Shown here: positions 32,288-46,541 of the stretch, piece after piece
Position numbering within the stretch: position 1 is the first letter of the stretch
Layout of the letters: each line of letters begins with the position of its first letter
Assembly (NCBI GenBank): GCA_029570385.1
Contig: JAKPXD010000002.1
Coordinates: 1 to 46,990, forward strand
Direction: 5' to 3'
Origin: a bacterium
GTDB lineage: Bacteria > Patescibacteriota > Patescibacteriia > Patescibacteriales > Patescibacteriaceae
Length of the DNA stretch: 46,990 bases
Position numbers and translations under genes: made by a program
Notes under the pieces: model-generated
Told to the model about the DNA's origin: nothing
Databases searched by the model: none
The model's input: only the letters and a program-made list of their open reading frames with translations

Positions 32288-32524
32288 ATGCCGATCGTTT
32301 CAATAAGTCAGGGGTTGTCTTCGGATGACCTACACGTCACGGCACTGGGGTGCAAAACAGTTGAAGAAGCAGATATCATTTTGAACCACCCTCAATGTGC
32401 TGAGACCACCAGACAGATGGTGGTCGCCAAGATCAAACTCTTTGACAAAAAAGAGTTCAACCAAGTCGACGAAAACTATCACAGCGACATTGTCGCTGTG
32501 GCTAAACAAAAAAACGGCGGCTAA
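32288..32524 (+). CDS. SD-led 78-aa ORF tiled with RNA hairpins
   Basis: ATG 32288 is preceded by AAGGAGG, one of only two strong Shine-Dalgarno sequences I see in the window. The 78-residue product is hydrophilic and unrecognised (LHVTALGCKTVEEADIIL, VVAKIKLFDKKEFNQV). The sequence is more GC-rich and C-ending in codons than its neighbours. The transcript folds into successive local hairpins: GGTTGTC-TTCG-GATGACC (32313-32330, a UUCG tetraloop), GCAC/GTGC (32342-32353), GACCACC/GGTGGTC (32404-32425), AACTCTTT/AAAGAGTT (32436-32457), CACAGCGAC/GTCGCTGTG (32480-32500). The TAA stop is in the loop of a further hairpin (32515-32533). It could be a protein gene with selected mRNA structure, or a structured RNA with an incidental ORF. 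Confidence 0.65.
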   Translation: MPIVSISQGLSSDDLHVTALGCKTVEEADIILNHPQCAETTRQMVVAKIKLFDKKEFNQVDENYHSDIVAVAKQKNGG

Positions 32525-45047: not shown

Positions 45048-45353
45048 TTAACCCAAATAAGATTGCCGGAAAGCTGCCAATTCTCTGGCTAAAATTGCCG
45101 GTAAATCAGGAATATTTTGAGCAAAAAATTTTTGCAATTCTTCATTTCCAGCCTTTTTATCTATAATAACTTCTAACTCTGGCAATTTTTCTTCCGGTAA
45201 CTCGGCAACTATGGCCGCCTCTAGGCGATCGTTAAGCCTGTCGGTTAAATCTTGAACCAATTGATCCCGAATCTCTGGTTCTAGTTGATCAATTCCTTGA
45301 GCTACCAATAATTCATCGACAAATTTATCCAATGATGGTGAGAGAGTTGACAT
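45048..45353 (-). CDS. Small helical protein, DUF5663-like
   Basis: A 101-residue acidic helical protein (LDKFVDELLVAQGIDQL, IRDQLVQDLTDRLNDRLEAAIVAELPEEKLPELE). The pattern of a leading LxxFxxxLL helix followed by a DLxxRLxxRLxxAIxxxLP segment is common in CPR genomes and annotated as DUF5663; its function is unknown. It sits directly before the giant glycosyltransferase-like gene and is probably co-transcribed with it. No SD and no convincing promoter. A family assignment by eye is tentative. Confidence 0.65.
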   Translation of the reverse strand: MSTLSPSLDKFVDELLVAQGIDQLEPEIRDQLVQDLTDRLNDRLEAAIVAELPEEKLPELEVIIDKKAGNEELQKFFAQNIPDLPAILARELAAFRQSYLG

Positions 45354-45410: not shown

Positions 45411-45436
45411 AATAAAAAGGCCGTTGATTAACGGCC
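45411..45436 (-). terminator. Terminator of the 284-aa gene, stop codon in the loop
   Basis: Stem GGCCGTT / AACGGCC, 4-base loop; the TAA stop (45430-45428) overlaps the loop. On the minus strand the stem is followed by TTTTTATTTGATTTTTT. Same stop-in-loop arrangement as at 32515-32533 and 40876-40915. Confidence 0.9.
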
Positions 45437-46282
45437 GTTGTTAGGAATTTCTACCAACCAGACTTTCTGGTGGTAGATTTGGGTACTATCATAAATAAAA
45501 TGCTGATTAAGATCAGCGATACTGCAAAATATCAGCTGATCTTTTTTAATCAGGGGGTAACACTTACCCCCGTCCCAGTCAATAAAGACCGGGTCGGCTA
45601 CGGCAATCACGCCGTATTTTTTGGGCAAGAAGGTTGTTAAAAACGCTTCCGCCCACTCGGCCTCGGGTATCATTAGGCCAGAGGCGCTAATCTCGGTAAT
45701 CACCTCTTCCAGTTTTTCACCCGAAACCTCTATTAACACAAATTGACGCACCTCCCGACTTGGGAGGGTGGTTTTTTTGTGTCTAAACCAGCCATAGCCC
45801 CAATATTGGGGTGAGTACTGGCTAGCCATGCTAGCCAGGCTACTGTTTTCATCAATGGCTAACCAAAATTTTTGGTTAACCACTGGACAGGGTCGCCGGC
45901 GGTTTAACTTTCTTTCTAATTCATAGAAAGAAATTAGCCCAACCAGAGGGGCTATGAAGAGACCCAAAGATGCCGATAATGCACACAAGAAATACAAGAT
46001 TACTATGGACATGTCAGCCCATAATAGGGCAACGATAACCGGCCAAATATTACCGTAGTCTTTCCAGGCTATGGGATAGTTGGCTCTGAAAAAAGATTCA
46101 GCCATGACGGCTAATCTTTTTTCACAGAAAAACAAAATTATCGCTAGCAATACCATTAATGCTAGCGTAGATCCCTTGGTCAATGTCGCTTGAGCTCTCT
46201 CCGAGAGCACAAAGAATATGACCAGATTGCCAAGAGACAAAATGGCCAATACCAGGATCGACAAAATTCTGATAATTTTCAT
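45428..46282 (-). CDS. SD-led membrane protein gene tiled with RNA hairpins
   Basis: ATG 46282 follows GAGGAG at 6 bases, a strong SD. The 284-residue product has about four N-terminal membrane helices (to about residue 120) and a cytoplasmic C-terminal domain (FWLAIDENSSLASMASQY, RQFVLIEVSGEKLEEVITEI, KKYGVIAVADPVFIDWDGG); I recognise no family. The coding sequence is packed with local hairpins, for example GGGGGTAA/TTACCCCC (45553-45571), CTGGCTAGC/GCTAGCCAG (45818-45838), TTTCTTTCTA/TAGAAAGAAA (45909-45933), a 12+4-bp stem (46087-46124) and CGCTAGCA/TGCTAGCG (46142-46167). It lies just downstream of the rRNA genes with its own promoter and terminator. The protein reads well (signal-like start, plausible helices), so I treat it as coding. 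Confidence 0.8.
   Translation of the reverse strand: MKIIRILSILVLAILSLGNLVIFFVLSERAQATLTKGSTLALMVLLAIILFFCEKRLAVMAESFFRANYPIAWKDYGNIWPVIVALLWADMSIVILYFLCALSASLGLFIAPLVGLISFYELERKLNRRRPCPVVNQKFWLAIDENSSLASMASQYSPQYWGYGWFRHKKTTLPSREVRQFVLIEVSGEKLEEVITEISASGLMIPEAEWAEAFLTTFLPKKYGVIAVADPVFIDWDGGKCYPLIKKDQLIFCSIADLNQHFIYDSTQIYHQKVWLVEIPNNGR
45437..46279 (-). repeat. Array of about 20 consecutive local hairpins in the 284-aa gene
   Basis: Further inverted repeats, by plus-strand position: 45451-45476 (11 bp, one bulge), 45505-45551 (GATTAA, GATCAGC and GATA nested stems), 45599-45616 (TACGGC/GCCGTA), 45736-45782 (ACACAAA/TTTGTGT around CACC-TCCC/GGGAGGGTG), 45798-45811 (CCCCAATATTGGGG), 45856-45882 (10 of 11 pairs), 45935-45954 (TAGCCC/GGGCTA), 46194-46208 (GCTCTC/GAGAGC), 46226-46250 (ATTGCCA/TGGCCAAT, one bulge), 46263-46279 (AAAATT/AATTTT). 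Arms differ from one another, so these are not copies of one repeat. Confidence 0.9.
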
Positions 46283-46323
46283 GATCTACTCCTCTTCTTT
46301 TTTTTATTTTTTAATGTTCTTTT

Positions 46324-46345
46324 GTCAATCAAAATCTAGATTGAC
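46324..46345 (-). promoter_or_regulatory. 5'-terminal leader hairpin of the 284-aa gene
   Basis: Perfect 7-bp stem GTCAATC / GATTGAC, 8-base loop. The predicted start point (about 46344) is at its outer base, so the mRNA would begin with the stem, followed by an A-rich unstructured stretch up to the SD. Confidence 0.65.
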
Positions 46346-46350
46346 TAATT

Positions 46351-46379
46351 AGTCTACAACAATTCTGGCTATATATCAA
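46351..46379 (-). promoter_or_regulatory. Promoter of the 284-aa gene
   Basis: On the minus strand TTGATA (46379-46374), 17-base spacer, TAGACT (46356-46351). A TTGACA nearer to the gene is part of the leader hairpin and lacks a good -10. Confidence 0.55.
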
Positions 46380-46403: not shown

Positions 46404-46541
46404 ACACCATAATTCTGGCGCTGACCTACTTTCCCAGGGCTTGATGCGACCCAAGTATCATCAGTACTGGAAGGCTTAACTACTGAGTTCGGGATGGGAT
46501 CAGGTGGAACCCTTCCGTTTGAAGCACCAGAATTATGGTGT
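46404..46541 (-). terminator. 5S rRNA processing stem and terminator
   Basis: A perfect 15-bp inverted repeat (46404-46418 with 46527-46541) brackets the 5S gene. On the minus strand the 3' arm is followed by seven T residues, so the same stem can mature the 5S precursor and end the rRNA transcript. Confidence 0.8.
46414..46531 (-). rRNA. rrf: 5S ribosomal RNA
   Basis: About 118 bases with the conserved 5S core on the minus strand: CCATCCCGAACTC in loop A/helix III, GTAGTTAAGC, and a terminal GGGAAAGTAGGTC. The 5' and 3' ends (TCTGGTG, CGCCAGA) pair as helix I. It follows 23S in the usual order. A 61-aa ORF read across it is not a gene. Confidence 0.95.

Follow-up and report, generated by a model that had tools for sequence, protein, structure and literature searches.

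Protein genes tiled with hairpins form a class common to sister species of Patescibacteriota

The stretch of DNA analyzed here (the window; 46,990 nucleotides) belongs to the genome G000 of a member of the Patescibacteriota and carries a protein-coding ORF whose sequence is filled with closely spaced, mostly perfect hairpins. This feature is not a single odd gene; it marks a class of genes that G000 has in common with a sister species. As an explanation, we rank first, and give an even chance of being correct, a class of accessory genes under a gene-specific, RNA-level pressure for local mRNA structure that extends from the start codon to the stop codon.

The hairpin-tiled gene of the window

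The ORF occupies positions 46282-45428 of the minus strand (855 bases, 284 codons) and encodes a 284-residue protein with hydrophobic N-terminal helices. As read from the sequence, an AGGAG ribosome-binding site (46289-46293, minus strand) lies six bases 5' of the ATG, and an intrinsic terminator with a 7-bp stem and a T tail (45419-45436, minus strand) overlaps the stop codon. Upstream on the same strand lies the 5S rRNA gene (46413-46531). With a T run after its terminal stem, the rRNA transcript probably ends ahead of the ORF; co-transcription of the ORF with the rRNA is hence unlikely. Downstream, likewise on the minus strand, follows an unstructured DUF5663 gene (45048-45353). In the sister species G002, the DUF5663 gene directly follows the 5S rRNA gene, with no hairpin ORF in between, which makes the window ORF an extra, accessory gene in G000.

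The ORF contains six stems that pair perfectly over at least 8 bp and enclose loops of 3-15 bases. All lie on the minus strand and are given here by their window positions: an 8-bp stem with a loop of 3 bases (45553-45571), a 9-bp stem with a loop of 3 (45818-45838), an 8-bp stem with a loop of 3 that forms the core of a 16-nucleotide imperfect pair at 45853-45885 (45860-45878), a 10-bp stem with a loop of 5 (45909-45933), a 12-bp stem with a loop of 14 that is itself partly paired (46087-46124), and an 8-bp stem with a loop of 10 (46142-46167). A nested set at 45503-45553 (minus strand) adds 9-bp arms (45509-45517/45535-45543) and 8-bp arms (45503-45510/45546-45553), which are separated by longer spacers than those of the six counted stems. 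When imperfect inverted repeats are included, 25 pairs occur in the 1.2 kb around the gene, and on the mRNA strand about 59% of the bases in the gene and the adjoining DNA find a partner no more than 80 nucleotides away. The preliminary description of this region had located the hairpins correctly, and its count of about 20 adjacent inverted repeats is reasonable once imperfect ones are admitted; its loop range of 3-10 bases, by contrast, has to be widened to 14.

The excess of stems is large by either null model. Synonymous-codon shuffles of the ORF contain 0.35 perfect stems on average and none of 100 reached six, while shuffles preserving codons and dinucleotides contain 0.61, with a maximum of three in 200. 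The chance figure of 0.1 proposed earlier was therefore too low, but the conclusion drawn from it stands. The folding energy of the ORF gave a z of -7.6 against synonymous shuffles and of -8.7 against shuffles that preserve the protein, the codon counts and the dinucleotides at codon junctions. The remaining scored ORFs of the window ranged from -3.4 to +1.8, so that the gene falls well outside the range of its neighbors, the next most extreme value being -3.4. With a z of -8.7 when codon and dinucleotide content is fixed, and with the class described below present in two independently assembled species, an origin by chance or as an artifact of composition or assembly has a negligible probability, even though the sequence of the window gene itself has no homologue to confirm it.

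A palindromic repeat family was considered as a source of the hairpins and rejected. As had been proposed from the letters of the sequence, the arms are mutually unrelated, and a DNA search of the whole genome with the region gave no match besides that region and one of its own palindromes.

No homologue of the window protein was found in 61 relatives, in the family (at E-values up to 5), in genome contigs, in viral contigs, or among phages, plasmids and PHROGs; Pfam gave a sub-threshold match only, and matches in the PDB at an E-value of 0.37 were dismissed as noise. AlphaFold, run on the single sequence, returned a poor, low-confidence model (mean pLDDT 46.5) in which the N-terminal helices expected from the earlier inspection are visible. 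Taken together with a codon use unlike that of the neighboring genes (GC3 0.50 vs. 0.28-0.42), the lack of homologues and the poor model would suit a non-coding structured RNA locus with an accidental ORF. The frame, however, is open over 284 codons, has its best codon score in its own frame and is preceded by a ribosome-binding site, and purifying selection acts on the proteins encoded by class members; we regard a non-coding locus as very improbable.

A class of structured genes and its borders

Genome-wide, the predicted folding of mechanically called ORFs was scored over 653.5 of the 654.5 kb of G000 and over most of the genome of the sister species G001, with 8-10 shuffles per ORF. The score d is the energy per 100 nucleotides below that of synonymous shuffles; for ranking, the values of sense and antisense were added, and ORFs with a d below -10 were taken as outliers. 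By this measure 15 of 537 ORFs in G000 and 12 of 555 in G001 are outliers, which corrects the preliminary description of one gene. Among controls, a convenience set of ORFs around hppA from 80 genomes of many phyla, one of 645 fell below -10, and its frame is doubtful; 400 kb of G012, which represents another genus of the same family, contained none, and the sole ORF below -10 in 50 kb of Escherichia coli is an unannotated frame.

The class comprises a membrane pyrophosphatase (hppA), two Nudix proteins, an inositol-phosphatase-like protein, several secreted or lipoprotein-like proteins and many proteins of unknown kind. Its proteins are under purifying selection (pN/pS 0.24-0.39). The window gene, an ORFan, owes its assignment to the class solely to its own folding score. 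A bias toward membrane proteins was discarded as a class feature, since hydrophobic segments are present in 50% of the class and in 40% of the other proteins. Also excluded from the class was a 78-codon ORF of the window (32288-32524), transcribed opposite to both of its neighbors; it carries three perfect stems and ends in a further stem rich in G+C, but its overall folding score is modest.

Several loci deserve separate mention. In G001, three adjoining hairpin-tiled genes on the same strand, one of which encodes a LysM-like protein, occupy C3:62564-65429. An 18-bp perfect stem with a 10-base loop lies at positions 926-971 of L048 (G000 C27) within a 149-codon gene common to G000, G001 and G002. 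The hairpin-tiled genes G000 C31:477-1814 and G001 C1:37943-39232 encode secreted repeat proteins whose C-terminal domains resemble, by eye, Bacteroidota-like sorting domains, which are odd in a genome so small.

Averaged over the class, the folding profile is normal 5' of the start codon, falls within the first 40 bases of the coding sequence, stays low until the stop codon or terminator and returns to normal beyond it. The structure thus changes at the ORF borders. Most genes neighboring class members fold normally, including some that lie close by on the same strand. Synonymous choice contributes -6.6 of the effect in the class; the order of the amino acids adds about -1.0 (compared with -0.3 in controls), a slight lean of the proteins themselves toward hairpins. 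Intergenic DNA contains 19 non-terminator stems in 27 kb of G000 and 19 in 36 kb of G001, where 6-7 are expected, an approximately threefold excess at a density that is nevertheless far below that of the hairpin genes.

Hairpin genes tend to be stand-alone, mostly accessory units: a terminator of their own lies within 90 nucleotides in 59% of them (11% of other genes), and 24% are flanked on both sides by genes on the opposite strand (6% of other genes).

Accessory units of this kind, which look inserted, might owe their hairpins to a function of the DNA itself, with cruciforms or single-stranded hairpins serving the transfer, uptake or replication of mobile genes. One of the Nudix genes is pertinent here. 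It is structured in G000, G001 and G002, whereas its paralogue is not, and its DNA is identical between L208 (G002) and G001 C1:193074-194759, with a neighbor that differs by 2%, although third positions otherwise differ between G001 and G002 by a median of 36%. This identity suggests either a recent exchange or a mis-binned contig. Against a role of DNA structure speak the halt of the hairpins at the borders of the coding sequence, a preference for G-U pairs on the mRNA strand that is described below, the failure of three class members to match any viral contig and the failure of the window gene to match phages or plasmids. We therefore consider this explanation improbable.

Turnover of hairpins around conserved proteins

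Among 449 reciprocal best pairs of G000 and G001, 14 and 8 members, respectively, are outliers, and five pairs are outliers in both species (odds ratio 80, P = 7e-7). Outliers are more frequent among the faster-evolving orthologues. While the trait is kept, the positions of the hairpins are not. Stems are retained across orthologues (paired fraction 0.607, 0.566 expected) to no greater extent than in control genes, and compensatory double changes in stems occur at chance level in alignments of class orthologues (184 observed, 190.8 expected). The more closely related pairs of G001 and G002, for which part of G002 was used, agree in that stem positions are not retained. The absence of covariation and the unconserved positions rule out conserved cis-acting RNA elements, and a reading of the hairpins as specific, conserved structures has to be abandoned.

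The hppA gene illustrates how structure can be gained around a conserved protein. In G000 it has a d of -8.3 and a z of -16.5, while its G001 relative has a d of +0.8, and the 35 homologues tested, with identities of 44-59%, range in d from -1.6 to +1.7. Since these homologues are unstructured, the structure arose in the G000 lineage; inheritance from the protein family or from a donor is thereby ruled out. The gene (G000 C3:38499-40682; L074/L075) has its closest relatives in the searched collection among Bacteroidota-type proteins (59% identity), which suggests that it was acquired by horizontal transfer, and its hairpins stem from synonymous sites.

RNA-level pressure or a mutational footprint

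Turnover of this kind is also what a purely mutational process would leave behind. DNA-polymerase template switching (sequence-directed mutagenesis) can perfect chance quasi-palindromes and requires no selection on RNA; the process is documented (PMC8794818; PMC4060949) and has been proposed for nematomorph mitochondria (PMC6649704). Class genes would then be enriched through weaker constraint or through hot spots created by their stand-alone transcription opposite to their neighbors. The stems are mostly perfect Watson-Crick pairings and equally strong on both strands, amino-acid order makes a small contribution, a location opposite both neighbors is more frequent for hairpin genes, and outliers are commoner among the faster-evolving orthologues, all of which fits template switching. 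The nearly equal structure of sense and antisense strands, in particular, is a prediction of a DNA-level origin of palindromes and counts against a reading at the RNA level.

Other observations speak against mutation as the sole cause. Such stems are far scarcer in intergenic DNA, although it is under less constraint; the flanks of hairpin genes are normal; and hppA is conserved as a protein, yet it is among the most affected genes. Stems with a single non-Watson-Crick position number 122, with about 48 expected, and among the near-perfect stems of this type G-U is found at that position in 35 cases and A-C in 13 (9.6 and 7.7 expected). As G-U and A-C are mirror images of each other on double-stranded DNA, the excess of G-U points to the mRNA, an asymmetry of moderate strength (P about 0.01 by our own approximation). 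Changes confined entirely to one arm, as template switching should leave them, were found in one of 11 informative stems (0.6 expected), a small sample. On the other side, and counting against the RNA-level reading, runs of at least three adjacent changes are somewhat commoner in two of three hairpin pairs.

A pure mutational origin consequently takes second place, as a serious but less probable explanation, behind pressure at the RNA level, and both may act together. Of the two causes named in the preliminary description, selection on mRNA structure is thus favored by the confinement of the hairpins to the coding sequence, their mostly synonymous basis, the G-U preference and the normal folding of most neighbors and of the Nudix paralogue; template switching is less favored, but may still help to create stems.

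Under the favored RNA-level explanation, the pressure would be generic and gene-wide, and the identity of individual hairpins would be irrelevant, so that hairpins turn over and each orthologue carries a set of its own while the protein is kept. The ORF-wide structure would most likely hold the translation of class genes low and/or shield an mRNA that carries few ribosomes from endonucleolytic decay; RNase Y is present in G000. Some of the perfect stems exposed to this selection may originate from template switching. Damped translation, or protection of a poorly translated mRNA, is probably the purpose. A more specific version, in which selection on generic structure, irrespective of any particular hairpin, keeps accessory genes folded throughout their ORFs as a form of class-specific regulation or mRNA protection, possibly with the folding read as a class mark by the machinery of RNA decay or translation, is more speculative, and we hold it to be somewhat unlikely.

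Evasion of Rho was discarded as a purpose because no recognizable Rho is present in the genus (G000-G002). Weak matches to Rho models in six other genomes of the family (G003, G004, G005, G006, G009 and G012) resemble ATP synthase subunits and often come as two nearby hits; such matches are missing from G000-G002, and the genus may hence lack ATP synthase.

Genes of extreme structure beside normal ones, in sister species and with stems that turn over, form a natural set for testing function. They make testable the question of whether generic structure in coding sequences acts on translation or mRNA decay, or is the footprint of template switching. If the structure is selected, synonymous sites in a minimal genome carry a signal at the scale of the whole gene; if it is mutational, a gene-specific hot spot needs explaining.

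Within coding regions, local folding of the RNA is as a rule only faintly marked and spread over the whole genome. RNA viruses possess genome-scale ordered RNA structure that is generic along the coding sequence and needs no conserved elements, but there it concerns whole RNA genomes, whereas here single genes of a DNA genome are affected. In E. coli operons, mRNA structure characterizes ORFs as a whole and predicts how efficiently they are translated (PMC5318159). The class described here resembles this case in that structure is specified by the sequence, extends over the whole ORF and shifts at its borders; it differs in that the structure is extreme (z of -8 to -16), limited to a small set of genes and only presumably linked to translation. 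Prokaryotic coding sequences hold more short inverted repeats than expected, a surplus ascribed to sequence-directed mutagenesis (Ladoukakis and Eyre-Walker, as cited in PMC4060949). Both cases concern short, perfect repeats of this type within coding sequences, but that surplus is reportedly small and genome-wide, whereas here a few genes have a very large excess and ordinary genes are near normal. Joint action of template switching and RNA-level selection has been proposed for RNA genes (PMC8794818). The mitochondrial genes of Nematomorpha contain many inverted repeats of up to 284 bp, nearly all perfect, within functional protein genes, with positions gained and lost between species and some genes spared (PMC6649704). 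Location inside functional protein genes, turnover of positions and the sparing of some genes recur in our class; in contrast to the nematomorph repeats, its stems are short (8-18 bp), often contain G-U pairs or mismatches, as the 122 stems with one non-Watson-Crick position (about 48 expected) attest, and occur in few genes of a bacterial chromosome.
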